A stretch of 32,100 bases of DNA from Acidobacteriota bacterium (GTDB taxonomy: Bacteria; Acidobacteriota; Terriglobia; 20CM-2-55-15), in contig JAJEDW010000267.1 of assembly GCA_022821265.1 (NCBI GenBank), positions 1 to 32,100 on the forward strand. Reading direction: 5' to 3'. Under the pieces are notes generated by a model. The model was not told where the DNA came from. It worked only from the letters and a program-made list of their open reading frames with translations, and did not search any database. How positions within the stretch are numbered: the stretch's first letter is position 1; the number at the start of each line of letters is the position of its first letter. Below, one piece after another: positions 1,638-26,755 of the stretch. Position numbers and translations under genes: made by a program.

Positions 1638-3332
1638 ATGAAAAGCTCCGCAGCGCGCGCGACACTCGCCGTTTCCAAGTGGCGGCTCTTGCTGGCGTTG
1701 CTGCTGTTTCCGAGGCCCGGCCCCGCGCAGTCCATCGACTTCCCCGCCTTTCCCGACGTCGCCGCCGAGGCGGGGCTGACGCTGATGAACCTCAGCGGCG
1801 AGGGCGCCAACGATTACATCGTCGAGGCCAACGGGAACGGCGCCGCGTTCCTCGACTACGACGGCGACGGCGACCAGGACCTGCTGATCACCAACGGGTC
1901 CACGATCGCCCGGTACCGCGAAGGCGGCGATCCGGTCGCGGCGCTCTTTAGCAACACGGACGGGGTCTTCGAAGACGTGACCGGACCGGCCGGGCTCGGC
2001 GCGCGCGGCTGGGCGTTCGGCGTCTGCGCCGCCGACTACGACAACGACGGGGACGTCGACGTCTACCTGACGGCCAACGGGCCCAACCTCCTCTATCGGA
2101 ACAACGGCGACGGGACGTTCGAGGAGCGCGGGGCGGAGGCCGGGGTCGCCGATCGGGGCTGGGGCACGAACTGCGCGTTCGGCGACTACGACCGCGACGG
2201 CGACGTCGACCTCTACGTCGCCAACTACCTGACGTTCGACGATACCGTGATCGCGCGCCGGGGCAGCGACGTGTGCCTGTACATGGCCGCGCTCAACGTG
2301 TTCTGCGGACCGAAGGGCCTCGCCGGCGAAGCGGACGTGCTCTTCCGGAACGACGGCGACGGCGCGTTCTCCGACGTCACCGCCGCGGCCGGCATCGCCG
2401 ATCCCGGAAACTACGGGTTCGGCGCCGTGTTCACCGACTTCGACAACGACGGCTGGCCGGACATCTACGTCGCGAACGACTCGGTGGAGAACCTGATGTT
2501 CCGCAACACGGGCGGCGGCGCGTTCGAGGAGCTGGGCATGATCTCCGGCACGGCGCTCAACCTGTTCGGAAAGGCCCAGGCCGGCATGGGGCTGGCCGTC
2601 GGAGACTACGACAACGACGGACAATTCGACATCTACGTGACCCATTTCGCCGAGGACACCAACACGCTCTACCGGAACCTGGGGGACATGTTCTTCGCCG
2701 ACGTGACCGCGGCGTCGGGCGCGGCGCGGGCCTCGCGCCCGCACGTGGGCTGGGGCACGGAGTTCGTGGACCTGGACAACGACGGCTGGCTCGACCTGTT
2801 CGTGGCGAACGGCCACGTGTATCCGGGCATCGACACGCTGAACGAGGCCAGCCGGTACCTCCAGCCCAAGGAGGTGTACCGCAACCGGCGAGACGGCACG
2901 TTCGAGGAGATCAGCCGGGAGCTGGGCGGCGACCTGACGGTGCCGCATCCGGCCCGGGGCGCGGCCTTCGGCGATTACGACGACGACGGCGACATCGACG
3001 TCGTCGTCGTCAACACGAACGCGCCCCCCAGCCTCTACCGGAACGACGGCGGCAACGCCCGCCACTGGATCGGTTTCCGGCTGCGGGCCGCCTCCGGCAA
3101 CCCCGACGCCATCGGCGCGCGGGTGGAGGTCGACGCCGGGGGCCGGACCCAGGTGCGCGAGGTGCGAAGCGGCGGCAGCTACCTGTCGCACAACGACATG
3201 CGCCTGCACTTCGGCCTGGGGGACGCCGAGCGCGTCGACGCGGTCCGCATCCGTTGGCCCGGCGGCCGCACGGAGACGCGTGAGGGCATGGACGCGGGCC
3301 GGTACGTGACCATCCGCGAAGAGGGACCGTGA
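1638..3332 (+). CDS. CRTAC1-family protein (FG-GAP/VCBS repeats plus ASPIC/UnbV C-terminal domain), secreted
   Basis: Hydrophobic N-terminus (LLLALLLFPRPGPAQ). Seven Ca-binding-like DxDxDG repeats (DYDGDGDQDLL, DYDNDGDVDVYL, DYDRDGDVDLYV, ...). C-terminus IGARVEVDAGGRTQVREVRSGGSYLSHNDMRLHFGLG...VRIRWPGGRTETREG matches the ASPIC/UnbV pattern. Confidence 0.92.
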   Translation: MKSSAARATLAVSKWRLLLALLLFPRPGPAQSIDFPAFPDVAAEAGLTLMNLSGEGANDYIVEANGNGAAFLDYDGDGDQDLLITNGSTIARYREGGDPVAALFSNTDGVFEDVTGPAGLGARGWAFGVCAADYDNDGDVDVYLTANGPNLLYRNNGDGTFEERGAEAGVADRGWGTNCAFGDYDRDGDVDLYVANYLTFDDTVIARRGSDVCLYMAALNVFCGPKGLAGEADVLFRNDGDGAFSDVTAAAGIADPGNYGFGAVFTDFDNDGWPDIYVANDSVENLMFRNTGGGAFEELGMISGTALNLFGKAQAGMGLAVGDYDNDGQFDIYVTHFAEDTNTLYRNLGDMFFADVTAASGAARASRPHVGWGTEFVDLDNDGWLDLFVANGHVYPGIDTLNEASRYLQPKEVYRNRRDGTFEEISRELGGDLTVPHPARGAAFGDYDDDGDIDVVVVNTNAPPSLYRNDGGNARHWIGFRLRAASGNPDAIGARVEVDAGGRTQVREVRSGGSYLSHNDMRLHFGLGDAERVDAVRIRWPGGRTETREGMDAGRYVTIREEGP

Positions 3333-4906
3333 TCAGCCGCGGCATCGTGCTCGCGGGTCTCCTGTGCGCGGCGGTTCCCGGCTCGGCCCGCACCCAGTGG
3401 TTCGTCGAAGCGGCGGAGGAAGCCGGCATCGACTTCCGGCACGAAAACGGGGCGACGCCCGAGAAGTACATGCCCGAGACCATGTCCGGGGGCGGGCTGT
3501 TCTTCGACTACGACGGCGACGGCTGGCTGGACGTCTTCCTGGTCAACGGCGGCTCGTTCGTCGACGCCGGCGCGGCCGCCGCCGCGGCCCACCGCCTGTA
3601 CCGCAACGACGGCGACGGCACGTTAACGGACCACTCCGCGGGATCCGGGATCGGCGTCTCGGGATACGGCATGGGGGCCTGCGCGGCCGACTACGACAAC
3701 AACGGCGACGTCGACCTCTACGTCACCAGCATGGGCCCGAACCGGCTGTACCGCAACGAGGGTGACGGTAGGTTCGCCGACGTCACCGAAGCGGCCGGCG
3801 CCGGCTACGACCTCTGGAGCTCGAGCTGCGCGTTCGGCGACGTCGACAACGACGGCGACGGCGACCTCTACGTCGTGAACTACGTCGACTTCGCCGTGGA
3901 CAACAACAAGCCGTGCGTGCACACCGGCGACGTCCCGGTCTACTGCCATCCCAACGTCTACAACGGCCGCTCCGACGTGCTGTTCCGCAACGACGGCGAC
4001 GGCGCCTTCACCGACGTCAGCCGCGCGTCCGGCGTCCACCACGCCGGCGGCAAGGGACTGGGCGTCGTCTTCGCCGACTACGACCGGGACGGCTGGACGG
4101 ACATCTACGTGGCCAACGACTCGGTCCCCAACTTCCTGTTCCACAACCGCGGGGACGGCGCGTTCGAGGAGGTCGCGCTGTTCGCGGGCGTGGCCGTCGA
4201 CCGCGCCGGCGAGCCCCTGGCCGGAATGGGCACGGACATGGGCGACGTGGACGGGGACGGGCTCCCCGACGCGTTCGTCACCAACCTGGCCACGCAGACG
4301 CACAACCTGTACACGAACCTGGGGGCGGGACTCTTCATGGACTCGACCTACGAGAGCGGCGCCGGCCGCGCCACGCTGCCCTTCGTTGGGTTCGGCACGG
4401 TGTTCGCCGACTTCGACAACGACGGCGACCTGGACATCGCCGTCGCGAACGGCGAGGTCATCGACAACGTGGCCCTGTTCCAGGACAACCGGACCTATCC
4501 GCAGCGCAACCTGCTGCTCGACAATGACGGGACCGGGCGCTTCACCGACGTGGGCCCGGAATCCGGTCCCGGCTTCGCGCTCGAGAAGGTCGGCCGCGCG
4601 CTGGCGGCCGGGGACATCGACAACGACGGCGACCAAGACCTGCTCGTCGTCAACGTCGGCCAGACGGCCGACCTGCTGCGGAACGACGGGGAGAACGCCG
4701 GCGGCTCGATCCTGGTCCGCACCGTGGGGACCGGGAGCAACCGCGACGGCGTCGGCGCCGAGCTGACGCTCCGGGTCGGCGATCGGCGGCTCGTCCGCCA
4801 CGTCAAGGCCGGCTCCAGCTATCTCGCCCAAAGCGATCTGCGGGTCCACTTCGGACTCGGCGCGGCGGAGCGGGCCGAGCGCCTCGAGATCCGGTGGCCG
4901 GGCTGA
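3329..4906 (+). CDS. CRTAC1-family protein (FG-GAP plus ASPIC/UnbV), tandem paralog, apparently truncated at the C-terminus by TGA
   Basis: GTG start overlaps the upstream stop (GTGA, 3329-3332). Seven DxDxDG repeats, conserved DVLFRNDGDGAFTDV and SSYLAQSDLRVHFGLGAAERAERLEIRWPG. The frame reopens after TGA 4904-4906 with an ASPIC/UnbV-like tail to 5002. Confidence 0.9.
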   Translation: MISRGIVLAGLLCAAVPGSARTQWFVEAAEEAGIDFRHENGATPEKYMPETMSGGGLFFDYDGDGWLDVFLVNGGSFVDAGAAAAAAHRLYRNDGDGTLTDHSAGSGIGVSGYGMGACAADYDNNGDVDLYVTSMGPNRLYRNEGDGRFADVTEAAGAGYDLWSSSCAFGDVDNDGDGDLYVVNYVDFAVDNNKPCVHTGDVPVYCHPNVYNGRSDVLFRNDGDGAFTDVSRASGVHHAGGKGLGVVFADYDRDGWTDIYVANDSVPNFLFHNRGDGAFEEVALFAGVAVDRAGEPLAGMGTDMGDVDGDGLPDAFVTNLATQTHNLYTNLGAGLFMDSTYESGAGRATLPFVGFGTVFADFDNDGDLDIAVANGEVIDNVALFQDNRTYPQRNLLLDNDGTGRFTDVGPESGPGFALEKVGRALAAGDIDNDGDQDLLVVNVGQTADLLRNDGENAGGSILVRTVGTGSNRDGVGAELTLRVGDRRLVRHVKAGSSYLAQSDLRVHFGLGAAERAERLEIRWPG

Positions 4907-6163: not shown

Positions 6164-6394
6164 CCTGGAACCACGGAACGGTCGACAAGGCGACTCTCCC
6201 GGAGTCGCGCGATCGGGACGGCAACCACGAGCACGCGCTCAGGGCTGTCCGTCGCCGTGACGTGGATGGGAACCGCCCACAACTCGATGGTTCGACTTTT
6301 CGGGCGGCCCGACGGCCGCTTCCCGCTTGACCTCCGGCCCGTTTGGTGGATGATAGGCAGGAGCTTCCGAACCACGGACAAGGAGACATCGAGC

Positions 6395-7201
6395 GTGCGC
6401 AAGAGACTGGCCGCCGCCATGTTCACGATACTGCTTGCGGGAGCGGCGTCCGCCGCCGCGGCGCAGGTCAACCCCGATCCCGAACTCGGGCCCCGGCCCT
6501 ATCCACCGACGCCGCGCCTGGCCGACGGAACCCCGAACCTGGGCCCCATCGAGCCCAACAAGGGCTACTGGTCGCTCCGGCAGCACCGCGACTACGCGGC
6601 GGTGCTGACATCGCACGACGAGATTCCCTACCAGCCCTGGGCGCGGGCCATCGCGATGCAGCGGCGCGAGGAGCTGTCCAAGTACGATCCGCAGGGCTAT
6701 TGCCTGCCGCCGTCGGGGCCCCGCCTGATGACGACGCCGTTCCCGATGGAGATCCTCCAGTTGCCCGAGCAGGAACGCATCGTGATGATCTACGAGGGCG
6801 GCGCGCACATCTGGCGCATCATCTACATGGACGGCCGCGAGCACCCCACGGGCGACGCCTTGAACCCGACATGGCTCGGCCACGCGGTCGGACGCTGGAA
6901 GTGCGAAACGCTCGTCGTCGACGTCGTGGGATACAACGAGGGCAACTGGATCGACATGGTCGGGGACCCCCACACCGACCAGCTTCACGTCATCGAGCGG
7001 TTCTCCCGGCCCGACCTCTACACGCTCCACTACGAGGCGACGATCGACGACCCCGGCGCCTACACCGAGCCGTGGACGATCGCGTTCGACATCATGTGGG
7101 ACCCGGACGGCGAGATCCAGGAGTACATCTGCCAGGAGAACAACATCTGGCTGGGCGGTCTGCGCGACGACTTCGGCGATGCGGTCGTGCAACCCCGGTA
7201 G
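6395..7201 (+). CDS. Exported hypothetical protein, paralogous to the CDS at 26772-27614
   Basis: GTG 6395 with AAGGAG (6380-6385). Signal peptide RKRLAAAMFTILLAGAASAAAAQ. Signature TPNLGPIEPNKGYW...IIYMDGREHP...IDDPGAYTEPW...EYICQENN. Confidence 0.8.
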   Translation: MRKRLAAAMFTILLAGAASAAAAQVNPDPELGPRPYPPTPRLADGTPNLGPIEPNKGYWSLRQHRDYAAVLTSHDEIPYQPWARAIAMQRREELSKYDPQGYCLPPSGPRLMTTPFPMEILQLPEQERIVMIYEGGAHIWRIIYMDGREHPTGDALNPTWLGHAVGRWKCETLVVDVVGYNEGNWIDMVGDPHTDQLHVIERFSRPDLYTLHYEATIDDPGAYTEPWTIAFDIMWDPDGEIQEYICQENNIWLGGLRDDFGDAVVQPR

Positions 7202-7258
7202 CGCCGGCCAATTGCGACATGACGGCGCCCGTTTCCGAGAACTGAAGAGGAGTCTGGA

Positions 7259-7753
7259 ATGGCCAACATCGAGTTCACCCTCAACGGACAACCCCGGACC
7301 GTCGACGTCCCCGAGGAGATGCCGCTGCTCTGGGTCCTGCGCGACATCGTCGGGCTGACCGGCACCAAGTTCGGATGCGGCATGGGGCTCTGCGGCGCGT
7401 GCACCGTGCACGTCGACGGCGCCGGCGCCCGGTCGTGCCAGACGGCGGCGGTCAACGTCGCCGGCCGTGACGTCACGACGATCGAGGGACTCTCCGACGC
7501 GGGCGATCACCCGGTCCAGCAGGCGTGGATCGCGCTCGACGTCCCGCAGTGCGGCTACTGCCAGTCGGGGCAGATCATGACGGCGGCCGTTCTGGTCCGC
7601 AACAACGCGGACCCGTCGGACGCGGACATCGACCGCGCCATGCGCGGCAACATCTGCCGCTGCGGCACCTACCAGGCGATCCGGGAGGCCGTTCACCGTG
7701 CGGCCGAGCTGTCGGGTTCCGGCGGCGGACCCGCGCCGGGGAGCGCGGCATGA
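7259..7753 (+). CDS. (2Fe-2S)-binding subunit of a molybdenum hydroxylase (IorA/xanthine dehydrogenase small-subunit type)
   Basis: Plant-type ferredoxin motif [21 protein letters not shown] and second cluster motif CGYCQSGQ...[21 protein letters not shown] upstream. Confidence 0.95.
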
Positions 7754-9855
7754 GCGCCATCCGACACGTCCACCGCAGGGATTTCCTGAAGACCGGCGCG
7801 CTGGGGGCCGGCGGCCTGCTCCTGGGCTTCCGCATGCCCGGCGCCGCGGCGGCCGCCGCGCAGGCCGCGGGGCCGGCCGAGCTCAACGCGTTCGTCCACA
7901 TCGGCGCCGACGACTGGGTCACGCTGATCATCGACAAGGCCGAGATGGGCCAGGGCACGGTGACGTCCCTGTCCATGCTGCTGGCCGAGGAGCTCGAGGC
8001 CGACTGGACCCGCGTGCGGACCCGGTTCGCGCCCGTCGATCCGGCCTACGGCCCGAATCAAGGCGTTTTCGGCAGCCTCAGCGTCCGCACAAGCTGGAAC
8101 CGCCTGCGCGAGGCGGGCGCGACGGCCGCCGAGCTGCTGGTCCGCGCCGGCGCGGATCGCTGGGGCGTCGCCCCGTCCGAGGTCCGCGCCGAGAACGGCG
8201 CGATCGTCCACACGCGGACCGGAGAACGCTTCCGCTTCGGCGAGCTGGCGTCCGAGGCCGCGCGGATACCGATTCCGCCCAACGTCGCCCAGAAGGACCC
8301 GACCCAGTTCAAGCTGCTGGGCACGTCTCCGACGAAGCTGGACACGCCGGCCAAGGTCACGGGCCGGGCCCGCTACGGCATCGACGTCCGGTTGCCGGGA
8401 ATGCTCCATGCCGTCGTGGCCCAACCGCCCGTCTTCGGCGGCGCGGTGGCCGGATTCGACGACGCCGCGGCGCGCCGGACTCCCGGCGTGCGCGACGTCC
8501 TGGAAGTCACCGGCGGCGTGGCCGTCGTGGCCGACAACACCTGGGCGGCCATGGAGGGCCGGCGCGCCCTGTCGATCGACTGGAACGACGGGCCGTTCGC
8601 TTCCGAGTCCAGCGCCACGATCCGCGACTACTTCGAACGGCTGGCGTCGGAGCCGGGCGCGGAGGCGCGGAGGGAAGGCGACGCCGAGGCGGCCATCGCC
8701 GGCGCATCCGATTCCCTCGACGCCGTCTACGAGGCGGCCTACCAGCCGCACGCCTCGATGGAGCCGTACAACACGGTCGCCGACGTCCGCGACGGCGCGT
8801 GCGACGTCTATGTCGGCACGCAGGTCCAGACTCAGTCGCGCAACACGGCGGCCGAAACGGCCGGCCTGGCGCCCGAGCAGGTGAACCTGCACTCGCAGAC
8901 CATGGGCGGCGGGTTCGGCGGCAAGAGCCGGGACGGTTACGTGGTCCACGCCGTCGAGCTCTCCCGGGCGCTCGGACGGCCCGTGCAGGTGACATGGACC
9001 CGCGAGGACGACACGCGGCACGACGCGTTCCGCCCGGCCGCCTACGTCCGGATGACGGGCGCCGTCGACGCCGGGGGCTGGCCCACGGCGTGGGGCGCCC
9101 GCATCGTCTGCCCGTCCTTCGCCGGACTGCGCAACGGGATCGACCGGACCGCGGTCGAGGGCATCGCCGACATCGAGTACGCGATCCCGAACATCCACGT
9201 AAGGTACGCGCCGCCGGAGCTGCCGATTCCGACCTGGTACTGGCGCTCGGTAGGCTACTCGCAGAACACGTTCTTCGCCGAGAGCTTCCTGGACGAGCTG
9301 GCGGCGGCCGGCGGCCGCGATCCCGTCGAGGTCCGGCGGCGGCTGCTGGCCGAATCGCCCCGCATGCTCAACGTCGTAAACGCGGCGGCCGAGCGCGCGG
9401 GCTGGGGCGAGCCGCTCGAGGAGGGCCGGGGGCGCGGCATCGCCGCGGTCAACAACATCGGCAGCTTCACGGCGATCGTCGCCGAGGCCTCGGTCCAGGA
9501 CGGGCGCATCCGCGTCCATCGCATGACATGCGCCATCGACTGCGGACACATCGCCCACCCGGGCGTCATCCGCCAGCAGATCGAGAGCGGCATCGTCTAC
9601 GGCCTGAGCCAGATGAAAGGCGGCCTCACGATCGACGACGGGGGCGTCGTCGAGAGCAACTTCCACGACTTCGAGGTGCTCCGCTTCGACGAGATGCCCC
9701 GCGTGGAGACGCACATCGTGGAGAGCCGCGAGATGCCGGGAGGGGTCGGGGAGGCGTCGACGCCGCCCACGGCGCCGGCCGTCGGCAACGCGGTATTCGC
9801 CGCAACCGGCAAGCGGATCCGGAAGCTGCCGGTCCGACCCGAGGACCTGGCATAG
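7750..9855 (+). CDS. Molybdopterin-binding xanthine dehydrogenase family large subunit (isoquinoline 1-oxidoreductase beta-like), Tat exported
   Basis: ATG 7750 overlaps the upstream TGA (ATGA). Tat motif [20 protein letters not shown]. Family motifs [63 protein letters not shown]. Confidence 0.95.
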
Positions 9856-9884: not shown

Positions 9885-11108
9885 CTACCTGCGGACGACG
9901 TAGCTCGGATCGATCCCGTCGACGGACGTGACGCCCGCCTGCCGCATGGTCCGGCGAAACTCCGCGTCCATGATCTCGAGGACGCGCTCGACGCCCGCCT
10001 GGCCGAACGCGCCCATGCCCCAGACGTAGGGCCGGCCGATGCTGACGGCCGCGGCGCCCAGCGCCAGCGCCTTGAACATGTCGGTCCCGCGCCGGAATCC
10101 GCCGTCGACCAGGACCGGCGCGCGCCCGCCGACGGCTTCGACCACCTCGGGAAGCGCCTCGATCGTCCCCCGCCCCGTCTGCGCCGCGCGCCCGCCGTGG
10201 TTGGACACGATCACCCCGTCCAGGCCCGCGTCGCCGACGGCCATCGCCGCGTCCTCGCCGGATTCGACGCCCTTGATCAGCAGACGACCGCGGACGCTGT
10301 CGCGCAGCCGACGGACGAAGTCCCAGTCCACGGCCGTGTTCGGCCCCATCGTGGCGGCCACGTCCGGATCCAGGCCCGCGATCATCGGCTTCATCCCGAA
10401 CGGGTTCTCCGGATCGTGGCAGCTTTCGCAATTGCGCGTGTCCATCCGGGCGAAGCGCGCGCTGGTCTGCATGTTGCGCCCGGCCAGCAGGTCGATCGTC
10501 AGGACGATGACGGAGCTGCCGGCGGCTTCCGCGCGGGCGACGAGAGCGCGCGCGACCTCCAGGCTGCCCTGCGGATAGAGCTGGTACCAGACGGGGCCGC
10601 CGCGGGCCTCGGTCACGTCTTCCACCGAGTGCCCGCTCATCGTCGACAGGATCTGCAGGTGGCCGTCGACGCGCGCCGCCCGGGCCGCGGCCAGCTCGCC
10701 GTCGGGGTGGAACATCCGCTGGCCGCCCACGGGCGCGAGCGTGATGGGGCTGGGCCAGCGCCGGCCGAAGAGCGTAACCGACGTGTCCACCTGACGAACG
10801 TCGACCAGGCGCCTCGGGCGGATCGCATACCGTGCGAATCCTTCCCGGTTGAGCGCCAGGGACGCGTCGTCGTCCGACCCGGACGCCATGTACCCGTAAT
10901 GCGCGGGGGGCATCGTCTCGCGGACGACGGCCTCGAAGTCGAAGACGTCGAGCGCGTCGCCGGGGTTTCCGATCGGCGGCGCTGCCTGATAGGCGCCGAA
11001 TGTACGTCCGCCTGCGCCGAGGGCCGCGCCGGCCAGGACCGGACTGCCCGCCAGGAACTGCAGGAACCGGCGCCGGCACAGGGCGCGAAACACCGCGTTA
11101 TCGGGCAT
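9885..11108 (-). CDS. FMN-dependent alpha-hydroxy-acid oxidizing protein (lactate oxidase/monooxygenase family) with Tat-like signal and CxxCH
   Basis: Tat-like CRRRFLQFLAGSPVLAGAALGAGG. FMN-oxidase motifs GLDGVIVSNHGGRAAQ, PVLVDGGFRRGTDMFKALALGAAAVSIGRPYVWGM. Ends ...DPSYVVRR. Confidence 0.93.
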   Translation of the reverse strand: MPDNAVFRALCRRRFLQFLAGSPVLAGAALGAGGRTFGAYQAAPPIGNPGDALDVFDFEAVVRETMPPAHYGYMASGSDDDASLALNREGFARYAIRPRRLVDVRQVDTSVTLFGRRWPSPITLAPVGGQRMFHPDGELAAARAARVDGHLQILSTMSGHSVEDVTEARGGPVWYQLYPQGSLEVARALVARAEAAGSSVIVLTIDLLAGRNMQTSARFARMDTRNCESCHDPENPFGMKPMIAGLDPDVAATMGPNTAVDWDFVRRLRDSVRGRLLIKGVESGEDAAMAVGDAGLDGVIVSNHGGRAAQTGRGTIEALPEVVEAVGGRAPVLVDGGFRRGTDMFKALALGAAAVSIGRPYVWGMGAFGQAGVERVLEIMDAEFRRTMRQAGVTSVDGIDPSYVVRR

Positions 11109-11205: not shown

Positions 11206-12189
11206 ATGTGGAAACCGGCAACGGGCCTGGCGATCGCACTTCTGGCCGGGGCCCTGACGCTCCCGGCGTCGACGCCGCAGGCGGGAGCGGACGAGCGCCG
11301 GGTCACCGAGGCCCAGTACGAACGGTGGACCCGCGAGCTGTCGAACTGGGGCCGCTGGGGCGCGGACGACGAGATCGGGGCGCTCAACCTGATCACGCCG
11401 GCCAAGCGGCTGGAGGCGGTGGCGCTGGTCGAAGACGGCGTGACCGTGTCGCTGGCCGGCGACGCGGACACGGTCGAGGCCGTCGACAACGCCAACCCGT
11501 ACGAGCACACGATGCTGGGGATCAGCTCGGACCGGATCGCGGTCAGCTACCACGGCATCGCCCACACGCACCTGGACGCGCTGGCCCACGTCAACGACGA
11601 CGGCGTCTTCTACAACGGCTACGAGCCCGACGCGGACGACGTCGTCGCGAACGGCCATCCGCGCAACTCGATCCACAACGTGAAGAACGGCATCGTGACG
11701 CGCGGCGTCCTGATCGACATCCCGCGGATGCGCGGGGTCCCCTACCTGGAGCCCGGCACGCCGATCTTCGTCGAGGACCTGGAAGAATGGGAGCGGCAGA
11801 CCGGCGTCCGCGTGTCGGCCGGCGACGCGCTCTTCGTGCGCACCGGCGTCTGGGCCCGCCGAGACGCCGAGGGGCCGTGGCTCCGGGGGCGCCGGCCCGG
11901 GGGCCGGTCCGCCGGGCTGCACCCGTCGGTGATCCCGTGGCTGAGGGAACGCGACGTGGCGCTGCTGGGAAGCGACCACCCGCTCTACGTGGCGCCCTCG
12001 GAGCTGCCGGGCGCCGTCCACGACTTCGCCCTGCTCTACCTGGGCGTCCACATCTTCGACAACTGCGACCTTGAGGCGCTGTCCGAAACGGCGGCGGAGC
12101 GCAACCGGTGGGAGTTCCTCCTGATGGCCGCGCCGCTCCCGATCCGGGGCGGGACGGGCTCGCCGCTGAACCCGATCGCCGTCTTCTGA
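11206..12189 (+). CDS. Cyclase family protein (kynurenine-formamidase-like metal-dependent hydrolase), exported
   Basis: RBS AAGGAGG upstream. Signal peptide. Motif HGIAHTHLDALAHV (HxGTHxDxxxH-like) and LGSDHPLYV...VHDFALLYLGVHIFDNCDLEAL. Confidence 0.9.
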   Translation: MWKPATGLAIALLAGALTLPASTPQAGADERRVTEAQYERWTRELSNWGRWGADDEIGALNLITPAKRLEAVALVEDGVTVSLAGDADTVEAVDNANPYEHTMLGISSDRIAVSYHGIAHTHLDALAHVNDDGVFYNGYEPDADDVVANGHPRNSIHNVKNGIVTRGVLIDIPRMRGVPYLEPGTPIFVEDLEEWERQTGVRVSAGDALFVRTGVWARRDAEGPWLRGRRPGGRSAGLHPSVIPWLRERDVALLGSDHPLYVAPSELPGAVHDFALLYLGVHIFDNCDLEALSETAAERNRWEFLLMAAPLPIRGGTGSPLNPIAVF

Positions 12190-24709: not shown

Positions 24710-26755
24710 ATGATCCTGCCCAACCGACGCCGCGTTCCGAGGCCGTGGATGCTTCCGATCTGTCTTCTGGCCGTCACGCCGCCGGCGCCCGCGCAGGAAG
24801 CGGGCGTCCCGGCCGGCGAATGGCGCTATATCGGCGGCGACGCCGGCCACACGCGCTACTCGGCGCTGGATGAGATCGACGGCGGCAACTTCGAGGACCT
24901 GGAAGTCGCCTGGGTCTGGCGCGGCGACAACTACGGCCCGACCGTCGATTACGTCTCCCGCTCGACGCCGCTCTACGTCGACGGGCTGCTGTACACCGTC
25001 GCCGGCTCGCGCCGGACCGTCTCGGCGATCGACCCGGGCACCGGAGAGACCGTCTGGACGTTTCGCGAGCCGCACACGACGCGATACGAACGCGGCATGC
25101 GCAACAGCTACGGAAAGGGTGTCGCCTGGGCCGAGGTCAACGGCCGCGGCGTGATCTTCATGAGCAGTCCGGGGTTCTTCCTCCACGCGCTGGACGCGAA
25201 GACCGGGCGGCCGATCGATGGCTGGGGCGCGACCGTGCCGCTGGACGGTTTCGCGGCCACGGGCGTCGTCGACATGCTGCCGGACCTGGTCGGCGACTGG
25301 GAGCCCTGGCTGCAGTCCGGCTACGCCTACGACCCGGATCACGGGATCCCGCGCGACCTGGGCAACCTCAGCACGTCGTCCCCGCCGATCGTCGTGAACG
25401 GGGTCGTCATCGTCGGCAACGTCCACGAGCAGGGGTACTACCAGACCCGCACGGAGAACATCCCGGGCGACATCCTGGCCTACGACGCCTCCACCGGAGA
25501 ATTCCTCTGGAAGTTCCACGTCATTCCCCGTCCGGGCGAGTTCGGGCACGACACGTGGGAGAACGACGCCTGGATGACCACGGGAGACGTGTCGTCCTGG
25601 GCGCCGATGTCGGCCGATCCCGAGCGCGGGATCGTCTACATCCCGACCAACCCTCCGACGATCGACTTCTACGGAGGTTTCCGGCCGGGGGACAACCTGT
25701 TCGGCACCAGCATCATCGCCCTCGACGTGCGGACCGGCGAACGGGTGTGGCACTTCCAGATGGTCCACCACGACATCTGGAACTTCGACAACCCCACCGC
25801 CCCGGTGCTCCTGGACGTGACGGTCGACGGGCGTCCGAGGGCCGTCGCGATCCAGACGACGAAGCAGGGGTTCGCCTTCACGTTCGACCGTGCGACCGGC
25901 GAACCCGTGTGGCCCATCGAGGAACGCGAAGTGCCGCCCTCCGAGATTCCCGGAGAACGGCTCTCGCCCACGCAACCGTTCCCGACCCGCCCGGCGCCCT
26001 ACGAGATGCAGGCGCTCACCGAGGACATGCTGATCGACTTCACCCCGGAGTTGCGCGCCGAAGCTCTCGAGATCGTCCGGAACTACCGGCTGGGACCGCT
26101 CTACAATCCCCCGATCCAGGTGGGGCATCCCTCGGGGCTGCGCTCGTTCGTGAGCTGTCCCTCCGGCGCCACCAACATCTACGGGCCGACGTCGGCCGAT
26201 CCCGAGACGGGGATCCTCTACGTGTCGACTCTTCGCGGATGCCGTTCCGAGAACATCGTCCCCGGCCACGAAATGGATGAACCGGACGATCCGCTGACGA
26301 CCGGACGCACCATCGCCGATTGGGTCGTCGCCGACCGGGGCGATTTCGGCGGGCCCCGGGGCCTGCCGATATTCAAGCCGCCGTACAGCCGGATCGTCGC
26401 CATCGACATGAACACGGGGGAGCACCTGTGGGAGATCCCGAACGGGGATACGCCCGAACGCATCCGGGATCACCCGGCGCTGGCCGGCGTGGACCTTCCC
26501 GTCACCGGAAAGACATCGCACCCGGTCACCCTCGCCACCCGGACGCTGCTGATCACGGCCGAAGGGACCCAGGGCGATCCCCTGCTCCACGCCGTGGACA
26601 AGCGCACGGGCGAACGCGTCGGCACCGTACCCATTCCGGCTTCCGGGCAGTACGGCATGATGACCTACCTGCACCAGGGCCGGCAGTACGTCGTCGTGCA
26701 GATCGCCGGCCCCGGCCACCCCGGTTCCCTGGCGGCCCTTCGACTGGGCGAATAG
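24710..26755 (+). CDS. PQQ-dependent dehydrogenase (quinoprotein glucose/alcohol dehydrogenase family), exported
   Basis: EWRYIGGDAGHTRYSALDEIDGGNFEDLEVAWVWRGDN, AIDPGTGETVWTFREP, ALDVRTGERVWHFQMVHHDIWNFDNPTAPVLLDV, TFDRATGEPVWPIEEREVP, AIDMNTGEHLWEIPNGDTPE. Confidence 0.95.
   Translation: MILPNRRRVPRPWMLPICLLAVTPPAPAQEAGVPAGEWRYIGGDAGHTRYSALDEIDGGNFEDLEVAWVWRGDNYGPTVDYVSRSTPLYVDGLLYTVAGSRRTVSAIDPGTGETVWTFREPHTTRYERGMRNSYGKGVAWAEVNGRGVIFMSSPGFFLHALDAKTGRPIDGWGATVPLDGFAATGVVDMLPDLVGDWEPWLQSGYAYDPDHGIPRDLGNLSTSSPPIVVNGVVIVGNVHEQGYYQTRTENIPGDILAYDASTGEFLWKFHVIPRPGEFGHDTWENDAWMTTGDVSSWAPMSADPERGIVYIPTNPPTIDFYGGFRPGDNLFGTSIIALDVRTGERVWHFQMVHHDIWNFDNPTAPVLLDVTVDGRPRAVAIQTTKQGFAFTFDRATGEPVWPIEEREVPPSEIPGERLSPTQPFPTRPAPYEMQALTEDMLIDFTPELRAEALEIVRNYRLGPLYNPPIQVGHPSGLRSFVSCPSGATNIYGPTSADPETGILYVSTLRGCRSENIVPGHEMDEPDDPLTTGRTIADWVVADRGDFGGPRGLPIFKPPYSRIVAIDMNTGEHLWEIPNGDTPERIRDHPALAGVDLPVTGKTSHPVTLATRTLLITAEGTQGDPLLHAVDKRTGERVGTVPIPASGQYGMMTYLHQGRQYVVVQIAGPGHPGSLAALRLGE

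Follow-up and report, generated by a model that had tools for sequence, protein, structure and literature searches.

The stretch of DNA analysed here (the window), 32,100 nucleotides from an Acidobacteriota bacterium, encodes on its minus strand a flavoprotein that contains CESCH, a match to the c-type haem attachment signature CxxCH, and so raises the question of whether a 2-hydroxy acid dehydrogenase can carry a covalent haem of its own. An earlier note, made from the letters alone, had drawn attention to the motif and to a Tat-like signal on the same protein. The open reading frame reads as quoted there, with C227-E-S-C230-H231 running from 10430 to 10416, and the N terminus contains R12-R13-x-F15-L16 followed by a hydrophobic stretch, as expected of a twin-arginine signal (Table 1).

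We found that residues 63–405 of the protein match Pfam FMN_dh (PF01070; E = 7.2e-109) and that alignment with glycolate oxidase (1gox) recovers the whole catalytic set, Y73, Y178, D206, K279, H304 and R307. There are only three cysteines and six histidines in the protein. No match to the cytochrome b5 domain (PF00173) was found, the region upstream of FMN_dh consisting of just the signal and a short linker, and the 407 residues gave no match to the cytochrome c domains PF00034 and PF13442 or to an Fe-S Pfam domain. The NCBIfam models for L-lactate dehydrogenase, L-lactate oxidase and MftD all fell under their cut-offs (best score 207.8 bits versus 376, the rest missing theirs by a wide margin). 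The substrate would be some 2-hydroxy acid; lactate specifically is unsupported.

Table 1. Positions of the features discussed, in window coordinates unless a locus is named
Feature	Position	Strand	Basis
CDS, FMN-dependent 2-hydroxy acid dehydrogenase family protein, predicted Tat-exported	9885..11108	-	ORF, 407 aa, ATG start
Twin-arginine signal core, residues 12-24 (RRRFLQFLAGSPV)	11037..11075	-	R12 and R13 in 113/115 rows
H70, proposed distal axial ligand of haem	10899..10901	-	His in 115/115 CxxCH+ versus 3/57 CxxCH- rows
Y73	10890-10892	-	Glycolate oxidase Y24
Y178	10575-10577	-	Glycolate oxidase Y129
D206	10491-10493	-	Glycolate oxidase D157
Loop 4 of the (beta/alpha)8 barrel, D206-W262, holding CxxCH	10323..10493	-	Alignment and AF2 secondary structure
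CESCH (C227-C230-H231), c-type haem attachment signature	10416..10430	-	Invariant, 115/115 rows
M242 in 'KPM(F/I)' segment, alternative distal ligand or packing residue	10383..10385	-	Met in 98/115 rows
K279, H304, R307, predicted catalytic residues	10188..10274	-	Glycolate oxidase K230, H254, R257 (1gox alignment)
Degenerate subfamily member and Tat-type FAD_binding_2 gene	L178:4942-6450 and 6491-8188
Degenerate subfamily member and Tat-type FAD_binding_2 gene	L213:5003-6259 and 6272-7969
Degenerate subfamily member L185	L214:1-1236
PQQ dehydrogenase (PF01011) and mono-haem cytochrome c (PF13442/PF00034)	L042:1-2605, L047:2946-5954, L078:7118-9726	Same as FMN_dh gene

The motif is invariant across phyla

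When the residues of the protein are shuffled, a CxxCH motif arises by chance with a probability of about 2-3e-4, but conservation across relatives is stronger evidence than such odds. To assess it, we collected relatives from the same family of genomes, from the same phylum and from named species genomes (80 loci), and added others from a Gammaproteobacteria survey, from the phylum of an Opitutae metagenome-assembled genome and from a permissive phylum search. The resulting alignment holds 115 rows with CxxCH (110 distinct) and 57 FMN_dh homologues without it. C227, C230 and H231 are kept in all 115 rows, which fall into 48 groups at less than 66% identity, and their invariance is at the level of that of the catalytic histidine and lysine. 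D206, K279 and H304 are universal in rows with and without the motif, and Y73, Y178 and R307 are nearly so. The two middle residues of the motif vary freely, with about 45 different pairs among the 115 rows, and loop 4, which holds it, ranges from 44 to 75 residues within the clade, so CxxCH has been retained while its surroundings drift. By the titles of their records, the rows belong to Acidobacteria, to Alpha-, Beta-, Gamma- and Deltaproteobacteria, to Opitutae and Gemmatimonadetes and to other groups. Sixteen homologues found later all have both CxxCH and a histidine at position 70, and none of the 29 FMN_dh homologues outside the family in the Gammaproteobacteria survey has the motif. That CxxCH is incidental is ruled out by this conservation across phyla.

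The earlier note had named joint conservation of CxxCH and the Tat signal as a test, and the two were indeed found together, at the level of sequence, in every complete member from many phyla. The two rows lacking the arginine pair are L065, which has the Tat motif in a different frame further upstream, and L027, which is truncated by a contig end. The scan of the 80 species-genome loci used Tat-signal and GGPVWYQLY patterns and is therefore biased towards exported members, but surveys of other genome sets with protein-only queries agree with it. Several homologues without CxxCH also have Tat-like signals (for example L012, L030, L036 and L159), so export is independent of the motif. No complete member has the motif without an export signal, as c-type haem attachment requires.

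A second histidine arose with the motif

Besides the three motif residues, H70 is the sole residue that every row of the clade has and that few other homologues share; the homologues with histidine there but no CxxCH are L036, L037 and L160. In a tree computed without the columns of the Tat signal, CxxCH and H70, the CxxCH proteins formed one clade with one change of state (SH-aLRT 99), so on this tree the motif is a single gain. The nearest sister without the motif is L030, which has a Tat signal and an alanine at position 70. L030 shares R100, N212, D223 and F368 with the clade but lacks CxxCH and H70, from which it follows that H70 tracks CxxCH and not the older features of the clade. The same comparison rules out R100, F368, N212 and D223 as haem-specific residues. 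A scan of the family of G182 found no more L030-like sisters. Because H70 and CxxCH arose on one branch in a single event, their association is a strong hint and not statistical proof; we place no weight on a Fisher test for H70, whose rows are related by phylogeny and so not independent.

An AF2 model of the protein (mean pLDDT 89.8, loop 4 about 78–89) places H70 on a short helix, residues 68–75, three residues ahead of Y73, which we take to be the counterpart of Tyr143 of flavocytochrome b2. The invariant histidine could offer an axial ligand to a haem held by the motif, and on the pattern of conservation H70 is probably the distal one. M242 is another candidate, as methionine at this position is absent from all 57 rows outside the clade, but its case is weakened by its absence from 17 of the 115 rows, some of which have no methionine anywhere in the segment.

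A haem on loop 4 would lie on the way out of the flavin

Members of the hydroxy-acid family differ mainly in their electron acceptor, which is defined by loop 4 or by an added domain: O2 in some, cytochrome c by way of the added haem domain of flavocytochrome b2, and quinone by way of the long loop 4 of mandelate dehydrogenase (PMC8491902). In lactate oxidase, loop 4 is a mobile lid above the active site (PMC4908395). The position of CxxCH in loop 4 fits an exit for electrons from FMN, and a haem on this loop with H70 as a ligand would adjoin the flavin, near the site of the flavocytochrome b2 haem.

We consider it likely that the protein works as a periplasmic flavocytochrome complete in itself, in which electrons would pass from FMN to a haem c, bound by H231 and probably H70, and on to a cytochrome c. 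The individual parts of this proposal differ in strength: that haem c is bound at all appears highly likely, and a cytochrome c as the electron acceptor is a likely, if slightly less secure, part of it. In this scheme FMN would be loaded in the cytoplasm and the folded protein passed through Tat. After export, one haem c would be attached covalently to C227 and C230 of the mobile loop 4, with H231 as the proximal iron ligand and probably H70, on the helix bearing the active-site Tyr73, as the distal one. A 2-hydroxy acid would then be oxidized at FMN, and the FMN hydroquinone would reduce the adjacent haem one electron at a time, the electrons leaving to a soluble or membrane-bound periplasmic cytochrome c. 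The earlier note's reading of a haem-bearing periplasmic alpha-hydroxy-acid flavoprotein gains support from the joint conservation of CxxCH and Tat signal, from the site in loop 4 and from H70.

The closest functional parallel is flavocytochrome b2, the yeast L-lactate:cytochrome c oxidoreductase (EC 1.1.2.3), which has the same FMN_dh barrel and catalytic residues, a flow from FMN through haem to cytochrome c like that proposed here, and a haem beside Tyr143, where we would expect it beside Y73. Unlike flavocytochrome b2, the CxxCH protein is bacterial, carries a Tat export signal and has no cytochrome b5 domain; its haem would be covalent, of the c type and held by loop 4 together with a helix of the barrel. 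Spinach glycolate oxidase and human HAO1 (EC 1.1.3.15) also share the catalytic residues, and 1gox is the closest solved full-length fold to the model (TM 0.90 by target, 40% identity), but these enzymes are cytosolic or peroxisomal, lack CxxCH, have valine at the position of H70 and use O2 as acceptor. (S)-Mandelate dehydrogenase of Pseudomonas (EC 1.1.99.31), also among the structural matches of the model, and L-lactate dehydrogenase LldD are dehydrogenases of the same family. The likeness to mandelate dehydrogenase lies in loop 4 as an adaptation on the acceptor side; there the loop binds the membrane and gives access to quinone, whereas here it bears CxxCH and the protein is predicted to be exported. 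A periplasmic division of labour between flavin and haem c is likewise found in flavocytochrome c of the fumarate reductase type, FCSD and p-cresol methylhydroxylase, but these have other, FAD-binding flavoprotein folds, and their haem sits in a cytochrome domain or subunit of its own.

In the open-access literature searched (subscription literature being outside the scope), we found no described 2-hydroxy acid oxidoreductase with CxxCH. If correct, a haem c borne by a loop would add a fourth and domain-free solution to the choice of acceptor, besides those for O2, quinone and cytochrome c. The protein would also represent a compact natural flavocytochrome, useful for biosensors based on direct electron transfer, and would point to a widespread periplasmic respiration of hydroxy acids whose enzyme annotation pipelines would label simply as an oxidase or dehydrogenase. 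How Ccm could attach haem to a protein that has folded before Tat export would then need an explanation.

A subfamily keeps the site after losing catalytic residues

Orthologues from three genera, L161/L183, L184 and L185 (the latter two 75 and 63% identical to the first), have a degenerate active site in which Tyr73 is replaced by glutamate, Tyr178 is lost and Arg307 is replaced by histidine. They keep the Tat signal, CxxCH, H70, M242, K279 and H304. Directly after the subfamily gene, two of the three loci (L178 and L213) have a gene for a Tat-type FAD_binding_2 protein, separated from it by 12 bases in L213; the L213 FAD protein, the one tested, had flavocytochrome c as its best NCBIfam match, below the cut-off. 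The L185 locus has a different next gene. Retention of CxxCH, H70 and the Tat signal despite the loss of catalytic residues, together with the FAD neighbour, speaks for electron transfer as the reason why the site persists, and the subfamily fits a haem unit that serves another flavoprotein. Tentatively, and with somewhat more doubt than confidence, we suggest that a domain-free barrel haem c, formed by the loop CxxCH and the helix H70, later became modular as the haem subunit of an adjacent FAD enzyme of the flavocytochrome c type.

Other occupants of the site

The main rival to haem c, and one that the earlier note had raised in the form of a bound metal, is a zinc or other metal site, structural or regulatory, in which C227, C230, H231 and H70 would pin loop 4 to the N-terminal helix of an exported enzyme without haem. 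The four invariant residues are a plausible tetrahedral C2H2 set, and no cytochrome domain or cytochrome c fold was recognized in the protein. However, CxxCH with a freely varying middle pair is the signature of c-type haem, and it is unusual for two adjacent residues, here C230 and H231, to bind one zinc. Such a site would not need export, yet the Tat motif is present in every complete member, and the catalysis-poor subfamily retains the site, next to a flavocytochrome-c-like FAD gene in the loci noted above. We therefore regard zinc as unlikely.

A structural or redox-active disulfide between C227 and C230 of an exported hydroxy-acid oxidase is very unlikely: periplasmic CxxC pairs often form disulfides, but this would leave the invariance of both H231 and H70 (115/115 each) unexplained. 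Slightly more improbable still is an iron-sulfur centre, [2Fe-2S] or other, that has C2H2 ligands and is inserted in the cytoplasm ahead of Tat export. Cytoplasmic cofactor insertion is common among Tat substrates, and Rieske clusters do have C2H2 ligation, but the H...CxxCH spacing differs from both the Rieske pattern (CxH...CxxH) and that of mitoNEET, and the search for Fe-S Pfam domains was negative. An ordinary secreted alpha-hydroxy acid oxidase that makes H2O2 and has the motif by accident is hardly credible, since the full set of oxidase catalytic residues is offset by the cross-phylum conservation and the second invariant histidine; an oxidase side-reaction may nonetheless occur.

Cytochrome c assembly genes and gene neighbourhoods

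Of 80 distinct host genomes, 79 contain the cytochrome c assembly protein PF01578 (CcmC/CcmF/CcsA type; 20/20 and 60/61), that of the window among them. The host without a match is G947, a draft genome that contains L082. As this family is common in these phyla, its presence is a refutation test survived more than positive proof of haem attachment.

No conserved partner or acceptor gene adjoins the CxxCH FMN_dh gene in general, and associations are local only. In three loci (L042, L047 and L078), genes for a cytochrome c and a PQQ dehydrogenase adjoin it (Table 1). In the window, the plus-strand genes at 7259-9855, convergent with the flavoenzyme gene, encode a 2Fe-2S small subunit (Fer2/Fer2_2) and a molybdopterin large subunit with a weak Tat match, a pair that resembles a periplasmic-type aldehyde or isoquinoline oxidoreductase. 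The neighbour on the other side (11206-12189, plus strand) is a putative cyclase. A putative secreted protein of 314 amino acids with no Pfam match is encoded at 6257-7201 (plus strand); homologues of it are encoded close to FMN_dh in a dozen further loci, which may reflect no more than membership of an abundant paralogous family. Further away on the plus strand are a PQQ-dependent dehydrogenase (24710-26755; PF01011, E 2.6e-163), likely another periplasmic electron donor, and two FG-GAP/ASPIC-UnbV proteins in tandem (1638-4906), which are adjacent paralogues.

Within the family, an acidobacterial subgroup (L028, L031-L035 and L203-L212) has an extra 50–70 residues that separate the Tat signal from FMN_dh. 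These hold a CxxCG pair (for example CPDCGAEM, CEICGQHF), possibly a further metal or disulfide site.
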